A DNA stretch of 64,000 nucleotides from an uncultured Eudoraea sp. (GTDB lineage Bacteria > Bacteroidota > Bacteroidia > Flavobacteriales > Flavobacteriaceae), in the NCBI RefSeq assembly GCF_947490415.1, contig NZ_CANLGX010000001.1:806001-870000 (forward strand), written 5' to 3'. The notes beneath the pieces were generated by a model. The model was given only the letters and a program-made list of their open reading frames with translations, had not been told where the DNA came from and did not search any database. Position numbers and translations under genes: made by a program. This document shows positions 22,231 to 39,281 of this stretch, piece after piece (the first letter of the stretch is position 1; each line of letters opens with the position of its first letter).

Positions 22231-23172
22231 TTAATAAGTACACCTGCAATTACTTATACCCTGGAAGAGGTCTACCCCAATTGTAATAACATGGGTACCT
22301 GTACTGAAACCGAGTATTTCATTCAATATAATCTGATAGGAGTATCCAAAATAAAAATTACTTTTCTTAAGTCCAATTAATGGCGCTATATATAATGGGC
22401 TTCCTACCTGATCATTTAGAAAACGATAAGTCACACCTGCGTAGTAATAATCTTCAAAGTCGTACCATCTGAATTTAGCATTCAAATCGGTAACAGATCG
22501 CCCATCACTTTCAAACCATTGGAAGAAAACAGAGGGCTCTATTTCAAAATTGCTTTTTTTCTTACTGAATCTATAACCTGTATAGAGATAATAATTCCTT
22601 AATTGGTTAGGTTCTGATATCGGATTAAACTTAGTTAGATCTTTGTCCAGAAGATTAGAAGCATTTGCACTAAGATAAAACTTATCCTTTCTATACAAAA
22701 TACCAACATCGAAATTGTGGTTCGTTGTAGAACGGTCATCAGTAACACTAGGATCCAGACCATCAAAATTTTCAATATCTATCCTGAACTGGTTAAAATT
22801 ATATGAAAGACCAAATGAAAGAAATTCGTCTTCATACCTATCCAATGTCAGGTGATGCGCGAAGGATAACCTCGCCCCCCTTTGTTTGGTTTGCCCGTTA
22901 CTATCATTATAAAGAATCATACCTACCCCGGAGCGGTTGCCCACCCTGCCATCAGCAGCCAGAGACTGTGTGTCAGGAGCATCTTTTATTCCCACCCATT
23001 GCGTCAGACCATTAATTCGCACTTTAATATAGTCACCTATTCCCGCATAGGTTGGTGATATAACAAAGGGATTATCTGCCAAATACTGTGATAGCTGTGG
23101 AAGTGTAAGCTCTTGCGCACTCGAGGCAAACACACATAACAGCAGCATTGAAAATAGCAATCTATTGCGCAT
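22231..23172 (-). CDS. PorP/SprF family type IX secretion system membrane protein
   Basis: LPQLSQYLADNPFVISPTYAGIGDYIKVRINGLTQWVGIKDAPDTQSLAADGRVG is characteristic; beta-barrel-like alternation; next to a type B CTD adhesin. Confidence 0.88.
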   Translation of the reverse strand: MRNRLLFSMLLLCVFASSAQELTLPQLSQYLADNPFVISPTYAGIGDYIKVRINGLTQWVGIKDAPDTQSLAADGRVGNRSGVGMILYNDSNGQTKQRGARLSFAHHLTLDRYEDEFLSFGLSYNFNQFRIDIENFDGLDPSVTDDRSTTNHNFDVGILYRKDKFYLSANASNLLDKDLTKFNPISEPNQLRNYYLYTGYRFSKKKSNFEIEPSVFFQWFESDGRSVTDLNAKFRWYDFEDYYYAGVTYRFLNDQVGSPLYIAPLIGLKKSNFYFGYSYQIILNEILGFSTGTHVITIGVDLFQGISNCRCTY

Positions 23173-23193: not shown

Positions 23194-26100
23194 TTATCTA
23201 TATAGGGTAAAATGTCCTACAAATTCTCTTTCATCACGCTCACCATTCAGCTTAATGACGTACCAATAATCTCCCGTAGGCAACTCATTGCCGTGGTATA
23301 ATCCATCCCATCCGTTCGGCACTATAGTTTCCTCGGCGACTACTCTACCATAACGATCATATATTTTTATTAGTATTTCAGGATATCCTTCAATGTTATC
23401 AGGAATCCAATAATCATTTAATCCATCACCGTCAGGAGTAAAGAAATTGGGGATTTCTATATCTATAAACTCCATGAATATTTGTGCAGATACTTCACAC
23501 CCATTTTCATCTATTACCGTAACTGTATAGGTACCAGTCATTGTAATATAATAGGTGTTATCTGTACCATTATTATCATCATTGAAATAGAACGTATAAT
23601 CTTCAAGCCCGCCTTCCGCAATTGCGGTTATCTCATTAAGATTATTCTGTTCCAGGGTCAGCGTAAGTGGTTCAAAGGCCTGAATCTCGAAATCAACAGT
23701 TTGTACACAACCGTTAGCGTGTGAAATGGCAATAAAATGGCTACCCGGACTACTATTTCTAAAGTCAGGATTTAATTGCATATCTGCAGGGTCTGTTGAA
23801 TCTAAAGCATACATAACAGAGCTAAGAACCGTTGGATCCTGCAATGTAATGTTTACATAATTTTCAGGCAGGATATCTGTACATTCATAAACAGGCTCTA
23901 CCGTTGCGTTGAGATTAACTCCGCCACCCACTTCCAGAATAACCACATCCTCACAATCGTTGGCGTCTCTTACAAATATCGCATACGTTCCTTCTGCTAA
24001 TCCACTGAAAGTCGGATTGTCTCCCAGATCCACAAAATCATCAATGGTATTCGAATTAAATGCGGTTCTGTAAGGTGCCGTACCACCTAAAATGGAGATT
24101 GAGATAGACCCGTTAGCCTCTCCAGAGCATACCACAGGCTCTATAGCGCCAAGGGCAATGGAAACCGGTTCAGGATCAATAATTTCAATGTACTCAACAT
24201 AGAAACATTCGTTCGCGTCTTGTACAATTACTGTGTAAGTACCAGGTGCTAGATCTTCAAACCTATAATGTCCTGCCGGAAGTCCCTGGTCTGGATCTTC
24301 ATCGAAGAACTGGTTAAGATTGGGCGAGATGGCATATTGATAACCTCCGCCCCCACCAGACAACATTAATGTAATTGCACCATCTTCATTACCGTTACAG
24401 CTTACGTTATCAGCCTCGTAGGTAAAGATCAGCGGTTCAGGATTGTCTATAACTACAGGTTCCTGATCTGGATTACAACCTCCCTCACTGGTAGCTATTA
24501 CTGTGTAATTGCCAGGTGAAAGGTTTTCAAAGACCACATTTCGTGGATCGGTGACCGATGTCACCAGGTTTCCGTTAAGAAGCAGATCAAAGGTGTAGTT
24601 TCCAATTCCACCAACAGCATAGGCATAGATAGATGCGGTCATGGCATCTGCACAATTCACCGAAGCACTCGCATACTCTATGATCAGATCAACATCCGGA
24701 ATTGGGTTGATGATTACAGGAACCTGAGTAATGGATTGACAATTATTTACATCTCTGATTGTTGCATAATGTCTTCCTTCCGTGACATTGTAAACATGTT
24801 GTGAACCACTGTTGAATGATTCCCAAACACTGGTATCTGGATTAAAGTATTCATAGGGCGCCGTGCCACCGGTGACTGTTAGGGTTACAACAGCATCATC
24901 AATACAAGTCATTGCTGTGGTAAGCTCAAGTTCGGCAAGCAGTTGGTCAGGACCATCGAGATGAATAATACTAGTTGTATCAGTACAATCCATATTATCT
25001 ATTACAGTAACACTGTAATACCCTTCTCCTAAGAAATTGAATTCGTTACTTAGTTGTGGAACAGATGGGGTAAATTCTATTGTAGTTCCGGTCTCATCAT
25101 AATAATTAATAAAGTAATTATAACTACCAGACCCTCCTGAAGCGGTAACAACTATGGTTCCGTCCGGATTTTCATAACAGACTGGCGCCGTTCCTACTGC
25201 ATTGGCCACTATAGGAGGTGTTGGAGCAACATTTGCAGCTCCATTCCAGATACAACCCTCTGCATCGAGCACCTCGACAGTATAGCTGCCAGATGGCAGC
25301 CCTGTAAACACGTGGGCATTTACATCGTTTGCAGTGTATTGCTGACCTCCGCTATCGGTTAATGTAATATCATAAGGGAGATAACCACCTTCAGGAACCA
25401 CACTTATTTCGCCTAAATTATCTGGACAGCCCGCGGCCAATAGCTCTTCAATTAAAGCATCTAACATTTCTGTTGGCGATGCTACTGTTTGTACCAGGGT
25501 GTCTTCCGGATCGCAATATGGATAATCTAGTGGTAACACACGAACTAAATAATTGCCCGCAGGAACATTAGTTATGAGCAACGGGTGTGCATTGCTGTTG
25601 TTGCCTGAAATTCCAGTAGCTGTACCATCTTCATAAAAGACCTCATAGTCGTATGCTCCGGCATACCCGGTAAAAGTAACTTCCAAAGTGCCATCAGTGT
25701 CACCGAAACAGGTAATCGGAGTAACTGCACTTAGCGCTACACTGTATTGAGGCCTTGGATCAACTTCATAGGTTATAGTTTCATAACACCCCGTTATGTT
25801 ATCGGTTACTCTAATCGTATATATGCCAGGCTCCATAATATTGAATACCTGAGTATTTGAAGTAAGGTTTGGCCTCACATCAGCTGTTTCAAGCAGCTCA
25901 AAAGTAAGGTCTGTGGCTGGCGCGGTAGAATGCCCGGTAGAAGTCACAGTAATTTCCTGGCCCGTTGGGCAATCAGCTGGCCCTACGGCAAGATCCAATA
26001 CAATTTGTGGTAACGGCTCAATGGTCTGTGTTGGAAGCGTGAACAAACATCCGTTAGCATCCCGAATCACAATATCAAAATTACCAGCCGTAGTTACACT

Positions 26101-29100
26101 ATGGGTGAAAACATTTCCTCCTGTCGGAAGGTAGTTACCACCGTTTACGCTGTAGAAATAATCTGGTGTTCCGGTGCCCGCGGCAATTGTTACTTCAATG
26201 GTAGCAGCACTTTGGTTGTTAGAAGGATCACAGGCAAAAGGAACCACATTGGTAATAGCGGCATCCAGGGCTACAGGTTGATCGATTATGACCTGATCCG
26301 TTTCAACACAGTTTCTGTTGGATGTAACCGTGATGTCATAAGTGCCTGCTGGAAGACCAGTAAACACATTGGTATCCTGGGTTATGGTGGTTGTACCATC
26401 GGTTATTTCGTAAGTATAAGGAGGATTGTCATTTACCCCGGGACTGGCAGGTTCCAGGTTGATGATGATGGAACCATCAGAACCTCCTGCACAACTCACA
26501 TCTGTCCAGTCTGTTGCCAACAAAGTAACAGGCGTTGGTTCTTCTAGTGAAACAGGAGCCTCTGCCACACAATTTGGAGCGCCGAGGGTATCATCCGTTA
26601 CCCTTATAATATAATCTCCAAAAGCCACTCCGGTAAACTGGTTGCCGGAAGGTGCAATACCGGTAGGCGTGAGGTCTGACCTCAGCAATTCAACCGTGTT
26701 CGACCCTGAGCCTCCGGCGACGACAAATTCTATCACTCCGTCATTTGTATCACAACTTGGCTGGGTGACAGCAATTGCACTTACAACCAATTCGGGTTCA
26801 ATGGTTATATTTTCAAGCTCTTGACACCCATTGGCATCGCGAATTTCAATGGTATAGCCTCCGGAAACAAGGCCGGTATAGGTGTATGGGAAACTGGAAA
26901 CACTCTGGAATGCGCTTCCATTGATGCTAAGGCCGTACGGAGACACACCTGTATTCACGGCATCTAATGACACAACAATCGCAAAGCTCCCTTGTGCAGC
27001 ACACTCATCTACTATGGCTAAAGAAATATCCGGACTGGTGTCAGTGTCTATTGTAACCGCTATAGGCGCATCAATAATACATCCGTTAGCATCCCTGACA
27101 TAGATATCCCAGTTAAGACTTACTGTAGGATCCAGTTCTACTGTATTATCGAAAGGGAAGGTTGCGGGCACTCCGGCACCACTAACACTTGCACCATATT
27201 CATAAGGCGCAGTACCGCCAGTGGCCTGTACCGTTACCACTGCATTGGCCATGTTACAATTGGCATTCACAGTGTCTAAAAGCTGTAAAGCAAGTGGCTC
27301 GGGAGCATCAATGGTTACAAAGTTGGATTCCCCAACACACTGCGGATACGCAGTTTGTGTAATCTGTACGGAATAGATTCCGGCAGCTAATGTCGTTGCA
27401 ACAGTAAAAGTGTATGGGTCAGAAACCGCATTTTCAGCTCCGGATGCTCCGGCAACAAAACCTCCGCTGCTATCCAGAACCTGATAGTTAAATGTTCCTG
27501 TATATCCAGTAATAGTTACTTCAATGATGCCGTCAGAACTGTCACTACAGGTAGCATCAGTAAGAACAGCAGCGGTAACATCCATAAGGTCATAAGGAGG
27601 TACCAAATGTTCTACAATAACAGAACAGTTTGTAACGGTGTCTACAATTTCATATACGTAGGTTCCCGGTTGTGTGAGGACAATATTAGAAGGATCTGGC
27701 ACCACATTACCGCCTGGAAGCTCAAAGTAGTCGTAGTTTCCGGAACCGTCCACTGCTATAATTTCTATGATCTCAGCACCATTCATACAATCGATGGCCT
27801 GCAGCGGGTTTATTGAAGCGGTAACCTCCTGCATTACAGGAATAGGAACATCAACACTATCCGTACAGCCATTGGCATCCCGCACAACAACCGTTACATC
27901 TGGTGAGCCGAATGCCACCTGAATTGTATTGCCGCTTTGGAAATTCACTCCGTTATCAAAACTGTACAAATAAGGGCTCGTACCGGAAGGGTTGCCAAAA
28001 CCATCATCGTCTATGGTGACAGTAATTGTGCTTGCAGCATCATCACAGCTAAAAGTAGTTGCCGTAGCTGAAATGGAAAGTTCACTCGGCTCACTTATTG
28101 TGACGGGGAGTGTGTCTTCACATCCTTTGGAGGAGATAACGGTTACGTTATAATTACCTTGTGCTAAACCAGTGAATACATTGGAAGCTTGGGTAGTGGC
28201 ACCCCCATCCAGACTATAGCGATAAGGAGTGTCTATATTGCCCGGATCCAGGGTTACAGTAATCGAGCCGTCACTTCCGCCAAAACAGCTCACATCTGTT
28301 GCGTTTAGGGTAAAGGTTGGAATAACCGGTGCTGGCAACATCATGTCAACAGTTGTTGTACAGCCTGTAACAGTGTCTTCTACTTCAAAAGTGTAGGTTA
28401 TTGAATGAGTTAGTCCACTGAACAACCCTGTAACGTTTGTTGGACCTGCAGGACTGATCTGGGTATAAGAATAGCTTCCAGAACCTCCGCTGGTGGTAAC
28501 GCTTACTGCTCCCGAATTAGCTGGATCACAGTTTTCATCAACCGTAATATTGGCGGCAATAGCCAAAGGAGGATATATGGTGATGTTTTCAATTTCACCG
28601 CATCCGTTCTGATCGATTATTTCAAAGGTATGCGGCCCGGAACTCAGGTTGGATATAGTAATCACATTCCCTGCATTAACCAGTCCGGTGGCGGCCTGAG
28701 CTGCCCCACCATCTATGCGTATGGCATGGGGGGCAATACCCGCCACAACCAACGTAACATCAACACTGTAGTTGCCTTCCGCTGCAGTACACTGGTCGTT
28801 CAGCGCCACAGAGATCTGCGGCGAAGGATCAGTCGGGACCGTTACCGGATCGGACTGTATACAGCCATTGGCATCCCTGACGTATACGATATAATCCCCG
28901 CCATCAACATTAAATACATTTGCTGGACTGCCTGTCCAGGTAGCTACTGTGGGGGCCGGGTCTGTGCTCAGGGCAATCTGATACTCGTAGGGAGCAGTTC
29001 CAAATTGGCCAACTGCAGACACCTGACCGGCATTGAGGTTACAGTTGTCATTACGCTCCAGGCTTGCTGTTACCTCAAGCAGGTTAGTCGACTCTGTAAT

Positions 29101-32100
29101 GGTGAATTGGCTTGATCCTACAGTACATCCGTCATTTGCACCACCTACTTCGGTAAGCAGTAGGTAGTATATTCCAGGAGGGAGTGATGCAAAATTGTCA
29201 ACGATTACAGGTCCTCCAGGAGGGTTAACTATTGCAGAACTGGCGAAGCCTGTAGAAACATTGGATTGTGCAGTGAATATTTCGTAATCCACCCGGGTTG
29301 CCGCTGCGTCAAAATTGTCAAAAGTAAAACTCACATTTCCATCCGCAGCTCCTGTACAGGTAACATTGGCCGCCACAAGGGAATCTACCGTCATGTTAGA
29401 CGGAGTATTGATGGGGGCATTAGCGGTTTCAAAATAATAACAGTTCGTACCAACATCGTATACGATAAAGGTGTAGGTAACTCCGGGAACGAGGGCTGTA
29501 AATGTAGAAGTGTCTCCTCCCGGAGCGTCAGGCCCTTGATAAGATGATGAATACGGCGCCGAATAGGTTTCAAGAATTCCGAATTGATAGTTTCCACTAC
29601 CCCCGGCAGCTACAGTTACTGTTGCACTTCCTCCTGTTGCACAATCAGCGGTAAGGGCACTAACATCAATATCCAGATCACTGGGCGGCGAGGCTATAAT
29701 ATTTGTAGTTCGCACGGAACAGCCGTTAGCATCTACAACATCTACCTCGTAAATTCCGAACTGGAGGATGGTAAAAGTGTGGTCTTCTCCAATAATGGCA
29801 TTATACTGTTGGCTAGTCCCGTTATTCCCTGTCAGGTAATAGTTATATCCTGCAGTGCCTCCTGTAAGGTTCTCTACGGTGATAGACCCTAAAGTGGTTC
29901 CGACTGCTGTACAGGTAATTGGAACCAGGTTGATATCATAGGCAATGGGGTCAGGCTCTCCAATGACAATCACCTCCATGTCTGAACAGAAATTGGCGTC
30001 TGTTACAGTAACTTCATAACTTCCTGCAGGTAGTCCGGATGTCTGGGTTCCATAGTATGTGGCGGTCGTGGTATTTACCACGGAGACGGTAAATGGCGCC
30101 AAGCCCTGGCTTGTATCTAGGTTTAATTGAATGGAGGCCCCGGCATCTCCGTTACACAGGATATCCGTGGTCTGGACCAGGGAGGTAATTACAGGTGTGG
30201 TAATAGGTTCAACAACTGCCCGAGTCAATGCCGTACACCCTTCGGCGTCCGTAATCCTGAAATCAAAGGTTCCATCAACTGCTGTGCTATAACTAAAGCT
30301 GTTTCCGGCTAATGCAACAGGTGCAGACCAGCCGCCTCCATTAATACGCACTTCATAAGAGGCATATGGGGTGTATCCGTTACTTATGGTAACATCAATA
30401 ACAGCATCTAGGGAAACTGTACAATCCAGAGCCTTGCTTACTACAGCAGAGGCCTGGAGCTGGGGCTCAATGGTTTCTGTGATAATGTTGGACACACAAC
30501 CATATGCATCTGTTACTTGTATATTGTAAGTTCCGGGAATAAGGTTGCTAATAGTAAAAGGGTTCCCCCCAGCAGCCGTTTGTCCACCACCATTTATGGA
30601 GTAGGTATACGGCGCTACACCGTCTGTTATGGTAACTGACAATGACGCCTGGTTTGTTGAGTCGTAACATAAATCAGATGCAGCAAAAGCGATAACAGGT
30701 GCAGCCGCAGGATCGATGGTCACGGGGCGTGTTGTTTCACATCCCTCAGCATCCCGGACATAAATGGTATAGCTTCCGGGAGCAACTCCCGTAAAAGTGT
30801 TCGAATTCTGATAGGGCACTACAATAGCAGGTCCTGCAGTATTTTCCAGCTGGTATTCGTATCCACCCCAACCATTAGTAGCCGATATTGTAATAGTGGC
30901 ATCATTAATACAGGTAACCGGTGTTGCTGTAAAGGTAAAATCAAGTTCTGCAGGAGGCCCGGCAATGACCACACTGGTAGTAGTACTACAAGTAGTGGTA
31001 TCATCTGTTATTGTTACGGTATAGGTGTCTGCCGGCAGACTGTTTACAGCTATAGCTGTGGTGATATTGATGTTATTTTGTAAATCAACTACGGCAGCAG
31101 CGCTGTTTTCAACTACATAACTGTAGGTAGTTGCAAAATCACTTACGGTGAAGGTAAAGGCCCCATCTGTATCCGTGAAACAGGTAATATTACTAACCAG
31201 CTGGGAAATGGCATTTACCTGGGGAATATCGGCAATGGTATAATTTTCCTGAATCACACAACCTCTGTCGTCCGTGACCTGAAACGTATAAGTTCCCGGA
31301 CTTAAGTTAGTGAAAAGGTTGTTATTTCCATTAGGACCGGCACTTGAAGCTGGAGCTATAATCTCATATGTATAAGGGGCAGTTCCGTCTACAACCGAAA
31401 CAGTTACATCGGCGGTAATGGCCGGACAGCTGGGGGCTGTCTGGGCAAATGTAAGATCAGTTGGCGGATTCAGCGGATCTATAACAACAGCTGGCGTTTG
31501 GGCAACACACCCATTGGCATCGCGGATGGTAATGGTATAGGTACCGGCAGTAATCCCTGTACTGAAGGTATCTGAGCCCTGCCAAAACACTCCGTCCAGG
31601 CTAAACTCATAAGGCAGGGTACCACCCGAATAATTTATTGCCTGCAGGATGGCCGAGGCATTGTCGCAACTATAATTCTGAACCACGTCTATTGTTCCCG
31701 GAATTAGGGCGGGCGGAGCAACAAGCGTTACATCCCCTGAAACTGGACACCCTTTAGCATCGGTCACAGTGTAACTATGGGGTCCGGCAGTAAGCCCGGC
31801 ATAAGTGGTCTGTGTAGAAGGCGCTGAGCCGTCAAACACTATTTGATAAGGTGGTGTTCCACCAGATATTTGTAATTCAACAACCCCATCTGCACTCGCA
31901 TCACACAATGGGTTGGTAACGACTTCGGTAATACTGGGCAGGGTGTTGTCCGTTACAATTACTTGGTTTGTGGTTACCGTACATGCCTGGCTGTCCGTAA
32001 TTAGAAATTCGTAGGTTCCGGCGATTGTGGTGAAGAAAGAAAATGGTATACCGGGAACAGCGGTGCTGGCCTGGATAACAGATCCATCGCGTATTACTTC

Positions 32101-35007
32101 ATAGGTAAAGGCTGGGTTTCCCCCCGTAATATCTACATTAATTTCTGCATCTGGTGTAGGGGAACAGTCCAAATCCTTGACCAGAGTTGCATTAGCCGCA
32201 AGCGTAGGGAAGACATCAATGCTGGCAGAGGCCGTACAATTTTTACTGTCTATAACTTCTATGGTATAACTCCCCGGGCCTAATCCGGTAAAATCAGGAC
32301 TTGATTGATAGGCACCCCCATTGAGTCGATACTGGAATGGTGCCTCACCTCCTGAGGTAATGGTTGCGGTTAATGTAAGTCCTGTAGTGCTGTCATAACA
32401 AAGACTGTTGGCTGCAACATCCAACACGGGATTCACAATTGGGGTTAAAGCAAAGGTCTGTGTTACCTCACAACCTCCAGCATCTGTTACAATTACAGCG
32501 TAGTTTCCTGAGGTGTCTGAAAGACCAGTAAAAGAATTATTGCTTTGAGGCGCTGTTGCAACTCCACTTGGATCTACAAGTACATATTCATAGCCGCCCC
32601 ATCCACCAGCAGCAGTTATTACTACATTACCGGTGACCGTACCGCTTGCAGAACAACTTAAATCTGATACATTCAGATCAGAAATAAGCAGTGCACTTGG
32701 AGGCCCCGATATGATTATATCAGTTGTGTCTGTACAATTAGTGTCATTGTCGGTAACAACAATGGTATACGTTCCTGCCGCAAGGTTGGATAGCGATATA
32801 GCAGAAGAAATTTCTCCAGTGCCACTAAAGCTCATTGGTCCTGTTACGGAGTAATCAAAGGAACTGTTAAAGCCAGTAACGGTATAGGAGATTTCTCCAT
32901 TGGTGTCCCCGAAGCAGGTTACATTACTAATAAGCTGGCCTGAGACGCCGATGGGAGTAATGGGAAGAATGGTAAAGCTTTCACTGTAAGTACAGTCCGT
33001 AGCGTCCGTAACATTGAAAACGTAGGTACCCGGAATCAGGTTTTCAAATAAGGCAACATTATCAGAAATACTTGTAGGGCCCTGCACGGCAGGTGATGTG
33101 ATTTGGATATCAAATGGTCCCGTACCGCCGATAATAGTTACAGTAAGATCTGAGCCAGGAGAGTCACAAGTAATCTGAGTAGGCGCAAAGATTAAATCAT
33201 CTGGCCCGTCTACATCAAGAATTTCAACAGGATTCGTTTCTACAACACACCCTAGCGCATCCCTAATAAGAATAGTATAGCTTCCGGGAAGCAAGCCAAT
33301 AAACATATCGTCTGTCTCCCAGTTGGCACCATTAAGACTAAATTCGTACGGGGAAACACCGCCTCCATAATTATTGGCACGGATGGTTCCTGTTTGTACA
33401 CAGGTATAAGGTTGTATGAGTATTGCTTCTCCGGCAAGTTCTGTGGCCGGGCCATCAACTGAATAATAATAGGGATAGTCGCAATCAGCACTTCCCTTTC
33501 TCATATTAATTATAATGGTGTAATCACCTTGCATTAAGCCAGGAAAAAATCCTGATAAATTCGTGGCAATCGCATTGTTAATGTTAAAATTACCGTCGAA
33601 AACGTCTTGTTGAGGAATGACTTGGTCAAAAAGATAGTAGGTCAGTTGATACCCGTTATCATCAATTAGGTTCATTTGAATAGAGCCGGTAGCTTCTCCA
33701 AAGCAGGCCTGATCAATAATTGTAGGTGCCGCAAATTCTGCAGGAGGCACAAATTCTATATCTACCGAATTTGATACGGTGAAACAGCCAAATCGGTCTA
33801 TTAGGACAAAGGTGTAGTTTCCTGGGGTTAGAATATCGAAAATTTCGCTTGTCTGAAATTCACTAGTAGGAATTTCTGAAGGCGAATTATAGGAGGTAAT
33901 GAGGTTGTCGGTTTCATCAATATATTGCCAAATAGCATACCGGTATGGGGGCTTACCTCCTGCTGGATCAACCAGGATGTTTCCTTCCTTGCAAGTAATA
34001 TGTTGTGACACCCGGGCCTCAAAAGCCAAAGTATTGCTTGCATCTACAGCAACGGTTACAACATCAGATTGTTCACAACCATCACTATTAATTCCAACAA
34101 CACTATATTCGCCTTGACCTACTCCTGAAAAGGTATAGGTATCAGATGTTTGCCCGGTTACTACTTGAACCAGGGTTCCCCTGCCGCCATCAAGTCCGTC
34201 GTTTAATCTGAGCTCATAGGTATAGTCGGGTGAACCGTTAAAAAGATTGGCGGTTATGGTGGCAACCCCGGAGCAATCCACTTCTGTAGAAGCCGCAGAT
34301 ACCGAAAAATTACTGGTCCCAATAGGAATAGATGGTGTGCTAAAAAGACAAGCGTTTGGAATAGGATTTCCGTTATCGCCATCGAGTTGTGTCGCCTCTA
34401 TCCTATAGTTTCCATTGCCAGGTATTAGAAACGAAGGCCCGTTGTTGGCGCTAAAAGGCACAAGCACCTGATCATTGTCTGCATTAATCAATTGAAATCC
34501 ATAAAGACTTCCAAGGTTTGTAATAGTGATATTCCCAAAGGGCTCACAGCCAATGTCTGCCTTTTGATACAGGAGGTCTAGATCGTTCTGAAAGACATGA
34601 AAATAATGGTTTTCAAAAACCCCATTACCCAGGTTTACCCTTAAGCGATATTTGCCGTCCTGGCCTACAGGGAAGGTATTTCCAGTGGCTACTGTGTTAT
34701 AGTCACAACTTTGGCTTTGATTGGTACAGTTGTCTCCAAAGTTGGTGCAGCTGTTTTCATCAAGAAGCTGCCATTCAATGGTGCTTCCGGGATAGCTTAC
34801 GACAAGGTTTGCCATGTCATTTGCCCCACATAAAAAAATATGCGGCAGGTTACTTCCATCATTCGCGCAGACAACCACTTGTCCGTCTATATCATTATTC
34901 GGGGTATTTACCAGATCAATTATAGGATTGATTTGGGCCATAATGGCCTGACTGGCCAAAAAGAAAAGTACAAATAAAAAGATTAATTTTTTAAATAGTG
35001 CTTCCAT
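23194..35007 (-). CDS. Giant (3937 aa) SprB-repeat-type surface adhesin with T9SS type B (gliding motility-associated) C-terminal sorting domain
   Basis: Signal peptide MEALFKKLIFLFVLFFLASQAIMAQ; about 40 Cys-bounded xCxGxxDGxIxVxxxGGxxPYxYxxxG...GxYxxxVxDxxGC repeats; C-terminus IPNFFTPDGDGLNDYWIPDNIEGYPEILIKIYDRYGRVV...GWDGLYHGNELPTGDYWYVIKL. Confidence 0.93.
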   Translation of the reverse strand: MEALFKKLIFLFVLFFLASQAIMAQINPIIDLVNTPNNDIDGQVVVCANDGSNLPHIFLCGANDMANLVVSYPGSTIEWQLLDENSCTNFGDNCTNQSQSCDYNTVATGNTFPVGQDGKYRLRVNLGNGVFENHYFHVFQNDLDLLYQKADIGCEPFGNITITNLGSLYGFQLINADNDQVLVPFSANNGPSFLIPGNGNYRIEATQLDGDNGNPIPNACLFSTPSIPIGTSNFSVSAASTEVDCSGVATITANLFNGSPDYTYELRLNDGLDGGRGTLVQVVTGQTSDTYTFSGVGQGEYSVVGINSDGCEQSDVVTVAVDASNTLAFEARVSQHITCKEGNILVDPAGGKPPYRYAIWQYIDETDNLITSYNSPSEIPTSEFQTSEIFDILTPGNYTFVLIDRFGCFTVSNSVDIEFVPPAEFAAPTIIDQACFGEATGSIQMNLIDDNGYQLTYYLFDQVIPQQDVFDGNFNINNAIATNLSGFFPGLMQGDYTIIINMRKGSADCDYPYYYSVDGPATELAGEAILIQPYTCVQTGTIRANNYGGGVSPYEFSLNGANWETDDMFIGLLPGSYTILIRDALGCVVETNPVEILDVDGPDDLIFAPTQITCDSPGSDLTVTIIGGTGPFDIQITSPAVQGPTSISDNVALFENLIPGTYVFNVTDATDCTYSESFTILPITPIGVSGQLISNVTCFGDTNGEISYTVTGFNSSFDYSVTGPMSFSGTGEISSAISLSNLAAGTYTIVVTDNDTNCTDTTDIIISGPPSALLISDLNVSDLSCSASGTVTGNVVITAAGGWGGYEYVLVDPSGVATAPQSNNSFTGLSDTSGNYAVIVTDAGGCEVTQTFALTPIVNPVLDVAANSLCYDSTTGLTLTATITSGGEAPFQYRLNGGAYQSSPDFTGLGPGSYTIEVIDSKNCTASASIDVFPTLAANATLVKDLDCSPTPDAEINVDITGGNPAFTYEVIRDGSVIQASTAVPGIPFSFFTTIAGTYEFLITDSQACTVTTNQVIVTDNTLPSITEVVTNPLCDASADGVVELQISGGTPPYQIVFDGSAPSTQTTYAGLTAGPHSYTVTDAKGCPVSGDVTLVAPPALIPGTIDVVQNYSCDNASAILQAINYSGGTLPYEFSLDGVFWQGSDTFSTGITAGTYTITIRDANGCVAQTPAVVIDPLNPPTDLTFAQTAPSCPAITADVTVSVVDGTAPYTYEIIAPASSAGPNGNNNLFTNLSPGTYTFQVTDDRGCVIQENYTIADIPQVNAISQLVSNITCFTDTDGAFTFTVSDFATTYSYVVENSAAAVVDLQNNINITTAIAVNSLPADTYTVTITDDTTTCSTTTSVVIAGPPAELDFTFTATPVTCINDATITISATNGWGGYEYQLENTAGPAIVVPYQNSNTFTGVAPGSYTIYVRDAEGCETTRPVTIDPAAAPVIAFAASDLCYDSTNQASLSVTITDGVAPYTYSINGGGQTAAGGNPFTISNLIPGTYNIQVTDAYGCVSNIITETIEPQLQASAVVSKALDCTVSLDAVIDVTISNGYTPYASYEVRINGGGWSAPVALAGNSFSYSTAVDGTFDFRITDAEGCTALTRAVVEPITTPVITSLVQTTDILCNGDAGASIQLNLDTSQGLAPFTVSVVNTTTATYYGTQTSGLPAGSYEVTVTDANFCSDMEVIVIGEPDPIAYDINLVPITCTAVGTTLGSITVENLTGGTAGYNYYLTGNNGTSQQYNAIIGEDHTFTILQFGIYEVDVVDANGCSVRTTNIIASPPSDLDIDVSALTADCATGGSATVTVAAGGSGNYQFGILETYSAPYSSSYQGPDAPGGDTSTFTALVPGVTYTFIVYDVGTNCYYFETANAPINTPSNMTVDSLVAANVTCTGAADGNVSFTFDNFDAAATRVDYEIFTAQSNVSTGFASSAIVNPPGGPVIVDNFASLPPGIYYLLLTEVGGANDGCTVGSSQFTITESTNLLEVTASLERNDNCNLNAGQVSAVGQFGTAPYEYQIALSTDPAPTVATWTGSPANVFNVDGGDYIVYVRDANGCIQSDPVTVPTDPSPQISVALNDQCTAAEGNYSVDVTLVVAGIAPHAIRIDGGAAQAATGLVNAGNVITISNLSSGPHTFEIIDQNGCGEIENITIYPPLAIAANITVDENCDPANSGAVSVTTSGGSGSYSYTQISPAGPTNVTGLFSGLTHSITYTFEVEDTVTGCTTTVDMMLPAPVIPTFTLNATDVSCFGGSDGSITVTLDPGNIDTPYRYSLDGGATTQASNVFTGLAQGNYNVTVISSKGCEDTLPVTISEPSELSISATATTFSCDDAASTITVTIDDDGFGNPSGTSPYLYSFDNGVNFQSGNTIQVAFGSPDVTVVVRDANGCTDSVDVPIPVMQEVTASINPLQAIDCMNGAEIIEIIAVDGSGNYDYFELPGGNVVPDPSNIVLTQPGTYVYEIVDTVTNCSVIVEHLVPPYDLMDVTAAVLTDATCSDSSDGIIEVTITGYTGTFNYQVLDSSGGFVAGASGAENAVSDPYTFTVATTLAAGIYSVQITQTAYPQCVGESNFVTIDAPEPLALQLLDTVNANCNMANAVVTVQATGGTAPYEYGASVSGAGVPATFPFDNTVELDPTVSLNWDIYVRDANGCIIDAPIAVTIDTDTSPDISLAIVDECAAQGSFAIVVSLDAVNTGVSPYGLSINGSAFQSVSSFPYTYTGLVSGGYTIEIRDANGCQELENITIEPELVVSAIAVTQPSCDTNDGVIEFVVAGGSGSNTVELLRSDLTPTGIAPSGNQFTGVAFGDYIIRVTDDTLGAPNCVAEAPVSLEEPTPVTLLATDWTDVSCAGGSDGSIIINLEPASPGVNDNPPYTYEITDGTTTITQDTNVFTGLPAGTYDITVTSNRNCVETDQVIIDQPVALDAAITNVVPFACDPSNNQSAATIEVTIAAGTGTPDYFYSVNGGNYLPTGGNVFTHSVTTAGNFDIVIRDANGCLFTLPTQTIEPLPQIVLDLAVGPADCPTGQEITVTSTGHSTAPATDLTFELLETADVRPNLTSNTQVFNIMEPGIYTIRVTDNITGCYETITYEVDPRPQYSVALSAVTPITCFGDTDGTLEVTFTGYAGAYDYEVFYEDGTATGISGNNSNAHPLLITNVPAGNYLVRVLPLDYPYCDPEDTLVQTVASPTEMLDALIEELLAAGCPDNLGEISVVPEGGYLPYDITLTDSGGQQYTANDVNAHVFTGLPSGSYTVEVLDAEGCIWNGAANVAPTPPIVANAVGTAPVCYENPDGTIVVTASGGSGSYNYFINYYDETGTTIEFTPSVPQLSNEFNFLGEGYYSVTVIDNMDCTDTTSIIHLDGPDQLLAELELTTAMTCIDDAVVTLTVTGGTAPYEYFNPDTSVWESFNSGSQHVYNVTEGRHYATIRDVNNCQSITQVPVIINPIPDVDLIIEYASASVNCADAMTASIYAYAVGGIGNYTFDLLLNGNLVTSVTDPRNVVFENLSPGNYTVIATSEGGCNPDQEPVVIDNPEPLIFTYEADNVSCNGNEDGAITLMLSGGGGGYQYAISPNLNQFFDEDPDQGLPAGHYRFEDLAPGTYTVIVQDANECFYVEYIEIIDPEPVSIALGAIEPVVCSGEANGSISISILGGTAPYRTAFNSNTIDDFVDLGDNPTFSGLAEGTYAIFVRDANDCEDVVILEVGGGVNLNATVEPVYECTDILPENYVNITLQDPTVLSSVMYALDSTDPADMQLNPDFRNSSPGSHFIAISHANGCVQTVDFEIQAFEPLTLTLEQNNLNEITAIAEGGLEDYTFYFNDDNNGTDNTYYITMTGTYTVTVIDENGCEVSAQIFMEFIDIEIPNFFTPDGDGLNDYWIPDNIEGYPEILIKIYDRYGRVVAEETIVPNGWDGLYHGNELPTGDYWYVIKLNGERDEREFVGHFTLYR
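24907..26232 (-). repeat. Superunit 5, shortened (five repeats) in the giant adhesin gene
   Basis: ACDPS, DCPTG, TCFGDTDG, GCPDN, VCYEN; appears to lack subrepeat types 5 and 7; 1326 bp. Confidence 0.55.
26233..28047 (-). repeat. Superunit 4 (seven repeats) in the giant adhesin gene
   Basis: SCDDA, DCMNG, TCSDS, NCNMA, ECAAQ, SCDTN, SCAGG order matching superunit 3; 1815 bp. Confidence 0.65.
28048..29913 (-). repeat. Superunit 3 (seven repeats) in the giant adhesin gene
   Basis: TCTAV, DCATG, TCTGA, NCNLN, QCTAA, NCDPA, SCFGG order; 1866 bp. Confidence 0.65.
29914..31668 (-). repeat. Superunit 2 (seven repeats) in the giant adhesin gene
   Basis: Subrepeat order matches superunit 1 (GGWGGYEY/NGWGGYEY, LCYDSTTG/LCYDSTNQ at equivalent positions); 1755 bp. 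Confidence 0.7.
31669..33402 (-). repeat. Superunit 1 (seven SprB-like repeats) in the giant adhesin gene
   Basis: Bounded by type-1 repeats TCVQTGTIRANNYGGGVSPYEFSLNGANW and SCDNASAILQAINYSGGTLPYEFSLDGVFW; 1734 bp. Confidence 0.7.
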
Positions 35008-37017
35008 CTAGGTTATTAAGTTTGGGGTTACGCGCATGATCCACATTTTGTCGTCATATGCGTTATTAAGTTTTGAGTAGTAAGATATGAGGGCGTTGTT
35101 CCAGGATTCGTGTCGCTTTAAATAAACATACCGATAGTTATTTACCGGATTTATAAAGTAACTGGCACTGAGCCCCTGGGAGTTTAATAGTTTTACAAAT
35201 CGATTGGCATTTCTAGGGTTTGCAAAGACATTGGCTATAATATAATAAGCGGAGCCAACTCCTTGAATAAATTGACTTTTCGACTTTGGCTCGCCGCCTT
35301 TTACATTATCCCTTACAACAACATTCTTTTGAAGAACATCTGAGTCATATTCAGAAGATTTCTTACTAATTTTATTTGCATTTTCGGCATAGGCCTCGTT
35401 GGTATAGCGGTTATCAACATTCATTACCCATAGTTCGCCATTATAGGTTCCGTTTAATCCGGATTTGTGCGCGGCAAGTGCTTCCTTCCATGTATCGTAT
35501 CTCTTTAGGTATACATACTTTAATCCGTTTTTTGGATTGTCAATATAATCAGCGCTTAACCCCTGATTATTAAGATTGTCTATGAATTTATTCAGGTAAT
35601 GCTTGCCTTTGTAAACATTGGCAACTACATAGTATCCATTTTCCACACCTTCCAGGTCTCTGAATTTTTGACCTTTAACATTGTTTCGTTTAGCTTCCTG
35701 AATAAATACGTCTGCTTGAGTTTTTTTCCTGACTATAGGTTTATATTCAGTTGGACTAGGTTTCTCTACATTTTCAACAAGAGCTGTTTTGTCGTTATTA
35801 ATGAAATACATTTCCCTGGCCTTTTCTTCAAGATCAGGGCGATCTCCATTGGTTTCATTGCGCACCATGCGCATAACCATCTCAAACCTTCTTTCAAGAT
35901 CTTTTTCGCGATTTGTCTCTATGGAGTCCTGCCTAAAAATCAGCTCAGCAAGGATCGCGTCATTTTCTGCGAGGCGACGCTTGAGTTCTGTAATCTCTTC
36001 GTCATCAGAAGCAAGGGATTCTTCTATTGCTTCTTGTTCTTCTTCAGTATCTGCAATTGCTTCTTCATTTTCTTCCAGCATTACCCTGTCTTCTGTAAGG
36101 TTGGGAGTAAACGAGTAGGCAAAGGAAATTTCGTGGGTAGTACCAAAGTTGTCAAAACTATTTGACAGACCCTTCTCCATGGTATACCCCAGAGAGAGCC
36201 TTTTTCCAAGGTTAAAACCTATTCCGGCAGAAGCTCCGTAAAAGCTGTCGTATCCTGCTTGTATCCAACCTAATTTCGGTAAGTCGAAAATAAGATTACC
36301 ACCTAAAACAATATCTTCCTGACCAACCTGTCTGACCCTGGCCAGTGGCATCAATCGGGAGTTTTCAAATACTCCGGAGTTATTTTCTAACTCATAAGTA
36401 TATTGTAAATGAGCCGAGAAGGTTTTGTCCTTAAACTCGGTAATAGATTGACTTGTTTTCAGATTATAATCAAAAAGGTTTTCTGCAAAAACACCGAAAT
36501 CAAACTGATCATATGAAATGTTAAAACCCGGTTGAAAGGAAAGCAGAGAACTATCCTGAAAGCCACTCAAAAGTGGATCGAGCTCTATAGGGTTGGCCCT
36601 GTTCTGATCCAAGCCGCTACTGTAATAGGATAAATTTGCTCCAAAGGTGAAATTACTTTTATCGCTTAATTTTACCCCATAAGCATAATTCGCTAATATT
36701 CCGTAATTACTAACAACTCCCTCCCTTTGTGTATACAGACTTAACCCCAGTCCGGATCTATCGTTAATCCTACCACTGTAACTAAGGAAATATAGCTGGT
36801 TATTATCATCAAAAGATACCGATTGGTTTCTATGTAAAAGATTAATATATGACAAGTCTTCACGAACTGTTGAGAAAGTCGGATTTATTAAAAACCTATT
36901 GAACTTTAATAGGTTCTGTGAAGGCACATCATAAGAAATAAAGGGATTCTCTTCCTGTGCACTTATTTTGGTAAGTGCCATGATGAACAATAACAGGTAT
37001 GCGAGCTTTAGTTTCAT
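35008..37017 (-). CDS. PorP/SprF family T9SS protein with C-terminal extension carrying two SPOR-like repeats
   Basis: N-terminal NLLKFNRFLINPTFSTVREDLSYINLLHRNQSVSFDD (PorP/SprF-like); Glu-rich coiled linker; two copies of GYYVVANVY...YVYLKRYDTWKEAL..LNGTYNGELWVMNV. Confidence 0.8.
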   Translation of the reverse strand: MKLKLAYLLLFIMALTKISAQEENPFISYDVPSQNLLKFNRFLINPTFSTVREDLSYINLLHRNQSVSFDDNNQLYFLSYSGRINDRSGLGLSLYTQREGVVSNYGILANYAYGVKLSDKSNFTFGANLSYYSSGLDQNRANPIELDPLLSGFQDSSLLSFQPGFNISYDQFDFGVFAENLFDYNLKTSQSITEFKDKTFSAHLQYTYELENNSGVFENSRLMPLARVRQVGQEDIVLGGNLIFDLPKLGWIQAGYDSFYGASAGIGFNLGKRLSLGYTMEKGLSNSFDNFGTTHEISFAYSFTPNLTEDRVMLEENEEAIADTEEEQEAIEESLASDDEEITELKRRLAENDAILAELIFRQDSIETNREKDLERRFEMVMRMVRNETNGDRPDLEEKAREMYFINNDKTALVENVEKPSPTEYKPIVRKKTQADVFIQEAKRNNVKGQKFRDLEGVENGYYVVANVYKGKHYLNKFIDNLNNQGLSADYIDNPKNGLKYVYLKRYDTWKEALAAHKSGLNGTYNGELWVMNVDNRYTNEAYAENANKISKKSSEYDSDVLQKNVVVRDNVKGGEPKSKSQFIQGVGSAYYIIANVFANPRNANRFVKLLNSQGLSASYFINPVNNYRYVYLKRHESWNNALISYYSKLNNAYDDKMWIMRVTPNLIT

Positions 37018-37025
37018 TTTTCTGG

Positions 37026-39281
37026 TTAACGAATAATGGTTATGGTTCCTTGTTTTAAAACTTCATTTGAGTCTTTTATCTTATAGAAAAAGACCATATT
37101 TTGTTTGGCAAAAGTCATTGAAGATTCTGGCCAGTTATTTTGATAATTGAATTCATTTAATACCTCTTTACCTGCGCTATTGAAGATGACTACATTCACT
37201 TCAGCCTTGTTGGAGTAGGAATTAGGAATAATCCACTGATCATTTATTCCGTCGCCATTGACAGTAATAACATTAGGTATTTTAAAGTTGTCAAGATATT
37301 CTACGGTTAACTCCCTGCTTACCTCACAATTCCCTATAGTTGCTATAAGAACATAAGAGCCTTCTTCTGTAAATGTTGCGGAGGAGGAAGTGCTTATTTC
37401 TGTATTATTAGAATCATACCACCTGTAGGAGTCACCGCCACTTGCGGTAACTGTTCGGGAGCTGCTTTCAGGAAAAACGATTGTACCAGAGGGGTCAAGA
37501 GTTATCAATGCAGGATCCAGACCAGAGATAACTATTTGATTAGAAGGAAGAGGACAACCATTTCTATCTAATACCAATTGGTATGTTCCTGGTTCTGTTA
37601 CCGTTAATGCTATATCGGTGATATTTAGATTTACACCATCTCTAAACCAATCATAAGATTCACCAGTCAAATTCGTGGCGGTATTTATTGTAATAGGTTC
37701 TGAAGGACCACAACTAATAAGACCGGTACTGTTAATGGTCAAAGTCTCATTTACCAATAACTGAACAGTCAGGGAGTTTGATGTTGCGTTATATGTAGTA
37801 ATATTTCCGTCTACTTCATAATTACCATTTTCAGTAATATCCGTTAAACTTAGGCTTGCCGAAGTTTCTCCACTAATAGGACTGCCATCTTTTTTCCACT
37901 GGTATGAAAATCCGGAGATAAGAGAAGCAGTTACATCAGTCACGCCCCCACCCGAATCTATGGCATTAATAGTCGTTACATCAAGGACAATACTGTTGTT
38001 CGCACAGGCCGTATAAGCAGAGGCATAATCAATTACCACCTCAAAAGAGGCAGGAGTAACTACCATAGTTGCTTCAGAATCTATAGAGGTTGAGGAACAC
38101 GGTCCACCGCTTAGGGAAACTCGGGCAAAATAGGAACCGGTTTCTGTTTCACTGACCGTCAAACTATTGCTTGTGGCTCCCGATATCGGGCTACCATCTC
38201 TATACCATTGAAAAGTAGGAGAAGAAGCGTCCGTTGTGACACTTAATATTTCATTTTGTCCGGGTAACACTACGACGTTCGCAGGATTATTTCTGGTTAC
38301 CGTAAAATTCCCGGCATTAGTAATGGTCACGGCTGAAGATCTTTCCACACAAGCTCCGGAACCAAAAATTTCGACCTGATAGTCTCCTTCAAACCCGGGT
38401 ACAGATGCATCTACAGTAAAAATATAATTATTAGATGATGGAATGGCTGCACCATCTTTAAACCAGGCATATGTTAAACTGGCATTATTAATATTTGCTT
38501 CAAGATTTTCAGTTTCACCAGTACATAAGTCAGTTTTAGTAGGGGTGTTAATAGCTATTCCTAAACTGGCCCCGGTGGTTACATCGATTATGTTTGAAAG
38601 GGTATTACCAGATCCGGAACACGCACCATAATCAATTTCCACATTATACATTCCTGCCTGTGAAACTGTAATGGAATTACTTTTTTCGGCTAAAGGCGAT
38701 CCGCTTCTATACCAATTATACTGATAGGTATTTGCGTTAGGAAGATTATAAACCTCCAGGGTAATGGAGTTCCCGTTACAGACTTCAGCAGTACCATCTC
38801 CGAAGTCGGCATTGCCTTGTTGCCTGATCGTAATACCAGAATTTACATCAATAAAGTACATGGGATATGCGGCAGATGCGGCTCCAATAACAGCCGGACT
38901 TGTGCTTCTAACCCGAATTTTATAGCCTTCTCCCCTCGTATCTGTTGGGAGTGAAAACGGTATAAAGAAGTCAAAATTTGTATTTTTTGTAGCATCTCGG
39001 GCAAGTTCTACTGGGCTTGCAAAGCTCCCGCTCGCATCTGAGAGCTCAAGAATAAATTCATTATCACTGTTAACTAATGGAGGACTCCAGGTGAAATTTA
39101 CCCAGTAGTCATTAAAAGTACCAGAGGCACAGGCCTTATCCCAGGGAGAACTTCCGGGAGGAGGAGTCTGGTTAGGTGCGGCAACAGGAGCATTTAAAAC
39201 CTGTGCACTGAGTTGCATGCATCCTAACAGCAGTATGGTCAAAAAGAAATACTTGATTTTAAAGGATAGTTTTGCTCTCAT
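37026..39281 (-). CDS. Secreted protein with Ig-like repeats and T9SS type B (gliding motility-associated) C-terminal domain
   Basis: Signal peptide; repeated YxWYRDGxxI..xxxxxxVxxxGxYxV Ig/PKD-like units; C-terminus IPNVITVNGDGINDQWIIPNSYSNKAEVNVVIFNSAGKEV. Confidence 0.85.
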   Translation of the reverse strand: MRAKLSFKIKYFFLTILLLGCMQLSAQVLNAPVAAPNQTPPPGSSPWDKACASGTFNDYWVNFTWSPPLVNSDNEFILELSDASGSFASPVELARDATKNTNFDFFIPFSLPTDTRGEGYKIRVRSTSPAVIGAASAAYPMYFIDVNSGITIRQQGNADFGDGTAEVCNGNSITLEVYNLPNANTYQYNWYRSGSPLAEKSNSITVSQAGMYNVEIDYGACSGSGNTLSNIIDVTTGASLGIAINTPTKTDLCTGETENLEANINNASLTYAWFKDGAAIPSSNNYIFTVDASVPGFEGDYQVEIFGSGACVERSSAVTITNAGNFTVTRNNPANVVVLPGQNEILSVTTDASSPTFQWYRDGSPISGATSNSLTVSETETGSYFARVSLSGGPCSSTSIDSEATMVVTPASFEVVIDYASAYTACANNSIVLDVTTINAIDSGGGVTDVTASLISGFSYQWKKDGSPISGETSASLSLTDITENGNYEVDGNITTYNATSNSLTVQLLVNETLTINSTGLISCGPSEPITINTATNLTGESYDWFRDGVNLNITDIALTVTEPGTYQLVLDRNGCPLPSNQIVISGLDPALITLDPSGTIVFPESSSRTVTASGGDSYRWYDSNNTEISTSSSATFTEEGSYVLIATIGNCEVSRELTVEYLDNFKIPNVITVNGDGINDQWIIPNSYSNKAEVNVVIFNSAGKEVLNEFNYQNNWPESSMTFAKQNMVFFYKIKDSNEVLKQGTITIIR

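Follow-up and report, generated by a model that had tools for sequence, protein, structure and literature searches.

Gliding Bacteroidota use SprB as their foot, and little is known of how adhesins of this size and repetitiveness evolve or how their length is controlled. In Flavobacterium johnsoniae it is a gliding adhesin of 6497 amino acids (PMC9870892), and the literature cites a sprC-sprD-sprB-sprF operon in that species. A Cys-X-Cys tail ties the gliding SprF of F. johnsoniae to GldK (PMC12635249), and SprB fusions restricted to the C-terminal 368-448 aa of the protein are exported, found at the surface and bind SprF (PMC9143113, PMC12635249). The SprB family itself, chains of Ig-like domains and super-repeats in giant proteins are all already known. 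In the open-access literature that we searched there was no description of a seven-repeat order in SprB or of exchange of sprB ectodomains; most SprB papers are in subscription journals, and it is relative to the open-access literature that we present both as new.

Here we analyse a sprB locus in a stretch of 64,000 nucleotides from an uncultured Eudoraea sp., referred to in its entirety as the window. Our explanation of the locus as a whole, which we hold with considerable confidence, is that it carries a sprB gene with a stalk of about 40 domains arranged in superunits of seven types, that these superunits have been duplicated whole, and that the ectodomain has been exchanged with another lineage.

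Results

The sprB gene and its neighbours

Four co-directional genes have a domain content that fits the order sprC-sprD-sprB-sprF (Table 1). SprB repeats (PF13573) were matched in 17 stretches of the 3937-aa product, and the sorting domain at its C-terminus scores 89 bits with TIGR04131, for which the cut-off is 35. The sprC and sprD assignments are based on gene order and domains rather than on comparison with the F. johnsoniae proteins; the TIGR04131 match of the sprC-like product is weak and under the cut-off, and the SPOR match at the C-terminal region of the sprD-position product falls slightly under the Pfam cut-off. GldJ is encoded in the same genome (TIGR03524, 871 bits). Together, the gene order and domains, the sorting signal, the Cys-X-Cys tail of SprF and the presence of GldJ match the known operon and identify the large gene as sprB, encoding an adhesin exported by the T9SS; its movement along the surface and role in gliding are predicted from these features. 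A 2777-aa SprB-like paralog (L073, G000:C2:511800-520650) occurs in the same genome and shows weak periodicity at 14 repeats; no match to the PorP/SprF family was found on its contig.

Table 1. Features of the sprB locus, in window coordinates
Feature	Position	Strand	Description
sprC-like gene	37026..39281	minus	751 aa; Ig-like domains and T9SS type-B C-terminal signal; Pfam Ig_2, Ig_7, CHU_C
sprD-position gene	35008..37017	minus	669 aa; PorP/SprF-like barrel and C-terminal SPOR-like region; Pfam PorP_SprF 209 bits, TIGR03519
sprB, predicted giant T9SS gliding adhesin	23194..35007	minus	3937 aa, 42 Cys-bounded Ig-like repeats; Pfam SprB repeat E 3.5e-113, CHU_C; TIGR04131 type-B sorting domain 89 bits
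Exchanged ectodomain tract	23920..35060	minus	about 11.1 kb, borders to about 100 bp; Lentiprolixibacter-like, both flanks Eudoraea-like; identity profile, synonymous divergence, conflicting trees
N-terminal region and irregular repeats 1-4	33442..34941	minus	outside the superunits, without clear register to them
Superunit A	31708..33441	minus	repeats 5-11, 578 aa, aa 523-1100
Superunit B	29953..31707	minus	repeats 12-18, 585 aa, aa 1101-1685; 38.4% identical to A
Superunit C	28087..29952	minus	repeats 19-25, 622 aa, aa 1686-2307
Superunit D	26272..28086	minus	repeats 26-32, 605 aa, aa 2308-2912; 32.1% identical to C
Block E	24946..26271	minus	five repeats (33-37) limited to types 1-5; best in register against A, B and D, tied against C
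Terminal repeats 38-42	23677..24945	minus	register weak; kept apart from the superunits
T9SS type-B C-terminal sorting domain and stop codon of sprB	23194..23460	minus	aa 3850-3937; TIGR04131, PF13585
sprF, PorP/SprF-family outer-membrane carrier	22231..23172	minus	313 aa; TIGR03519 215.8 bits, PF11751
Cys-Arg-Cys codons of the SprF C-tail	22240..22248	minus	translated tail ends in NCRCTY and has the twin-cysteine motif described for gliding SprF (PMC12635249)

A seven-repeat order within the stalk

Cysteines alternate regularly along SprB and delimit 42 repeats, each with an N-Cys and a C-Cys and nearly all of 78-105 aa, where the initial annotation had counted roughly 40. It had also proposed that seven positional types recur in the same order four times, and these recurrences are our superunits A to D. 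The N-Cys of type 1 lie at aa 536 (the codon beginning at window position 33402), 1114, 1699, 2321, 2926 and 3368, so that the gaps are 578, 585, 622, 605 and 442 aa, or 1734, 1755, 1866, 1815 and 1326 bp; these are exactly the spacings given before, the first four agree with the block size of 578-622 aa claimed for the superunit, and the last belongs to the five-repeat copy that we call block E. The motif strings assigned to each type proved less general, since most are common to only two of the four copies (A and B, or C and D), for which they do hold.

Statistical support for the order comes from comparisons with shuffled arrays. Across repeats 5-37 the mean global-alignment score at a lag of seven is 90.8, as against 46.8 +/- 4.9 after shuffling (z = 9.0-9.4), and the highest value among 10,000 shuffles of the order was 69.7. 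Scores are also elevated at the harmonics, lags 14 and 21. Lag 1 is not raised (z 1.2), and we reject single-repeat slippage on this ground. All six pairs among superunits A-D align best at rotation 0, the pair A/B scoring 961 in register and at most 728 when rotated; block E likewise aligns best at rotation 0 with A, B and D and ties with C, and repeats 38-42 lack a clear register. When position is mapped as a label onto a maximum-likelihood tree of the repeats it requires 12 changes, compared with 23.0 for shuffled labels (none of 200 shuffles was as low), while superunit membership requires 24; same-position repeats therefore cluster and neighbours do not, which is the outcome that the initial annotation had anticipated and not the one that it named as refuting the order, although types 6 and 7 cluster weakly. 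Same-position repeats of this protein are in short more alike than adjacent ones, as expected of a super-repeat. Tiling of the protein in register by a superunit HMM is not proof alone, because any tandem array tiles, and it is the lag tests on shuffled order that carry the claim. Internal matches were sought with 250-aa windows, since self-BLAST of the whole protein showed the main diagonal alone.

Amino acid identity between superunits is 38% for A/B, 32% for C/D and 26-30% for the other pairs, and no DNA-level similarity longer than 100 bp was found between them: within the window protein these are old copies. An AlphaFold model of superunit B (mean pLDDT 89.8, pTM 0.43) is confident for the single domains and not for their arrangement relative to each other. 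A phmmer search of the PDB with the single SprB protein returned nothing convincing; a superunit profile did match, the best solved structure being GhpA of Aureispira (profile E 1.4e-39, structure E 5e-17).

Duplication of whole superunits in related genomes

Named genome records yielded seventeen related loci. Repeat counts among the orthologs range from 44 (Eudoraea L020) to 58 (L024 and L026), and their repeat-length series show that the insertions are whole blocks of seven, so that the comparison of superunit copy number in homologs suggested in the initial annotation gives a positive result. In L024, repeats 12-18 recur in tandem as repeats 19-25: 1727 bp of DNA match at 99.9% identity with an offset of 1743 bp, and one edge of the copy falls in the linker separating types 5 and 6. 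A second copy of seven repeats, offset by 1926 bp, has 97.2% identity across 1558 bp. Older copies of the same extent are present in L026 (80.5%) and L028 (84.5%). In nearly all family members that have a strong internal match, it lies seven or fourteen repeats away, the exception being L075 at ten. A tree of the superunits from nine loci contains an AB|CD split common to them, together with extra copies specific to particular lineages. These fresh DNA copies, the repeat counts and the superunit tree establish that tandem duplication of whole blocks changes the copy number by superunits; growth by blocks of seven instead of by single-repeat slippage, as first proposed from the window alone, can be seen in L024, L026 and L028.

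The period extends well beyond these orthologs. Among some 50 proteins compared, almost all SprB-like proteins of Flavobacteriaceae with more than 40 repeats have a best lag of 7 or 14; in those of 2700-3300 aa the period is mostly weak or at other lags, and the arrays tested from other families of the order have a best lag of 1, i.e., similarity between neighbours. On these comparisons the superunit is a conserved evolutionary unit across Flavobacteriaceae.

An alternative is that the period has been kept by selection on a structural repeat of seven domains, for example with seven domains to each superhelical turn or one ligand site per seven domains, and that same-position repeats are alike through constraint more than through descent. 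Position-specific features do persist across genera though the window copies are only 26-38% identical, and titin offers a parallel in that its Ig-type super-repeats are reported to be tied to filament structure (PMC10665226, PMC7427331). Against this, seven-repeat copies that are almost identical in DNA are direct evidence of descent by duplication, and the AB|CD structure of the superunit tree is shared across genera. We therefore think it unlikely that constraint is the main source of the likeness, while recognising that constraint and duplication can both contribute to the period, and we retain duplication of whole superunits as our reading.

Several structural variants occur among the relatives. 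One family member (L075, G030) has an internal duplication of ten repeats and a best lag of 10. In many, an extra module of about 200 aa interrupts a single repeat in the second superunit, which is of type 2 wherever the register is clear; the carriers are L026 (SprB aa 1790-2073), L028, L060, L063, L064, L069, L074-L077 and L084, and an ordinary repeat occupies the site in the window protein, L013, L014, L018, L020 and L024. In L026 this module has a weak match to the MAM domain, under the Pfam cut-off, and it is a candidate adhesive head. At G150:C1:719055-741719, and again at G012:C75:55200-91000, a pair of large sprB-like genes with superunits is found, the two members near each other.

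Evidence for ectodomain exchange between genera

The genes surrounding sprB are 84-96% identical to those of Eudoraea adriatica (L020) and 67-89% to those of Lentiprolixibacter (L014); for SprC, SprD and SprF the values are 87, 90 and 94% to the former and 68, 68 and 85% to the latter. For SprB this is reversed: its pieces share 80-89% identity with L014, and with L020 mostly 35-50%. Exceptions are the C-terminal piece, which is equally identical to both, and aa 1641-1968 (see below). The identity profile places one border at the sprB start, immediately behind the well-conserved sprD end, and the other some 750-700 nt upstream of the sprB stop codon (at about codon 3690), and the same two borders are found when L014 is compared with its sister L021. 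Synonymous differences (pS) agree: between the window and L014 pS is 0.556 for sprB and 0.78-0.88 for eight flanking genes, while between the window and L020 it is 0.75 for sprB and 0.57-0.69 for the flanks; sprB of the window and of L018 differ by 0.80. The two trees conflict, since the flanks join the window with L020 and L014 with L021, rejecting a grouping of the window with L014 (p-AU 1e-53), while sprB joins the window with L014 and then with L018, placing L020, L021 and L016 together and rejecting a grouping of the window with L020 (p-AU 4e-14). These patterns show that the sprB ectodomain (start codon to about codon 3690) was exchanged with a Lentiprolixibacter-like lineage. The final repeat and the sorting domain stayed native, as did the partner genes sprC, sprD and sprF.

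The same conflict might arise without transfer if two old tandem sprB paralogs had been lost differently in different lineages, and some family members (G150, G012) do have two sprB-like genes close together. Under such a history the window and L014 copies could not postdate the split of the species, yet their synonymous divergence is lower than that of every flanking gene compared. An unusually low synonymous rate in sprB is argued against by its differences from L020 and L018, and no second sprB allele is left in the window genome, in which SprB repeats occur at just one further locus, that of the 2777-aa paralog (contig C2). We consider differing loss of paralogs highly improbable, and reject it on the synonymous divergence. 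The weakest alternative, that this is an ordinary tandem array without higher order in which the seven types are a chance reading, can draw only on motif strings that fit some of the copies, and is refuted by the lag, register and tree tests, with z of about 9 at lag 7, none of 10,000 shuffles near it and the same lag in many orthologs.

With regard to the direction of ectodomain exchange, the other allele class is present in L020, L016, L021, L024 and L026, and the nearest further carrier of the class shared by the window and L014 is Pareuzebyella L018. The window and L014 lineages are, because of this distribution, likely recipients of a Pareuzebyella-like class; GC3 is ambiguous, no clear donor being readable from it. 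SprB aa 1641-1968 (29104-30087), at the start of superunit C, are 70% identical to L020 and 66-77% identical to Eudoraea-type alleles in surroundings of 35-47%, and are perhaps a smaller exchange inside sprB. In a genome of the same genus (G009; L017, L110, L111) only the 3' part of a window-type sprB is present, about 91% identical and without sprD or the rest of sprB alongside, which is either a broken remnant or an assembly fault.

Discussion

In proposing how the stalk could change in length, we suggest that the seven types have become too diverged for mutual recombination. Crossovers would then be confined to equivalent positions of adjacent superunits, aligned in register, and each would add or remove seven domains; it is the divergence of the types, we infer, that restricts recombination to in-register exchange. 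Ectodomain exchange would similarly proceed by homologous recombination, with its borders in the conserved sequence offered by the sprD 3' end and the sprB C-terminal region. Superunits would lengthen the filament, which SprF would tie to the moving gliding track, and the native C-terminal region would keep its fit to SprF while the exchanged part alters what the cell grips or presents. On this model superunits set the length of the filament and the exchanged part sets its grip. The native part kept in the window SprB, of about 250 aa, lies inside the region that matches the 368-448-aa fusions of F. johnsoniae, and by analogy fits an exchange that leaves the anchor matched to its SprF.

A broader reading is that sprB is a switchable surface locus, its complete ectodomains swapped between genera at two fixed borders, its C-terminal region kept to fit SprF and its length changing in steps of seven Ig-like domains; on this our opinion is evenly balanced. 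If true, a lineage could change its grip, or escape phage or predators, without rebuilding the motor. The conserved seven-domain unit is in any case a natural unit for structural work, for deletion series and for measurements of filament length, and exchange with a retained C-terminal region suggests a modular split, between a part that grips and a part that binds SprF, which is directly testable. The exchange also shows that a motility adhesin is able to move between genera, as surface antigens do.

Comparison with known systems

The window protein resembles SprB of F. johnsoniae in being a giant repetitive protein with SprB repeats and a T9SS type-B C-terminal signal, adjoined by a PorP-like SprF with a Cys-X-Cys tail and encoded in the order sprC-sprD-sprB-sprF, but it is smaller (3937 compared with 6497 aa). 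As regards its higher-order structure, titin and nebulin both include seven-member super-repeats. Like SprB, they are chains of domains from one family in which a fixed order repeats at a higher level (PMC10665226, PMC7109182). They are, however, eukaryotic muscle proteins that are not homologous to SprB as systems, and their period matches a filament partner, while no such partner is known for SprB. The proposed mechanism has its analogue in the higher-order repeats of alpha-satellite DNA, in which multi-unit blocks undergo unequal exchange in register, although alpha-satellite is non-coding and homogenised and the SprB copies are coding and mostly old. The closest solved relative of the superunit, GhpA of Aureispira (PDB 9flp, 9fly and others), likewise consists of long chains of Ig-like domains, but at 17-18% identity, in another organism and in the role of a grappling hook.
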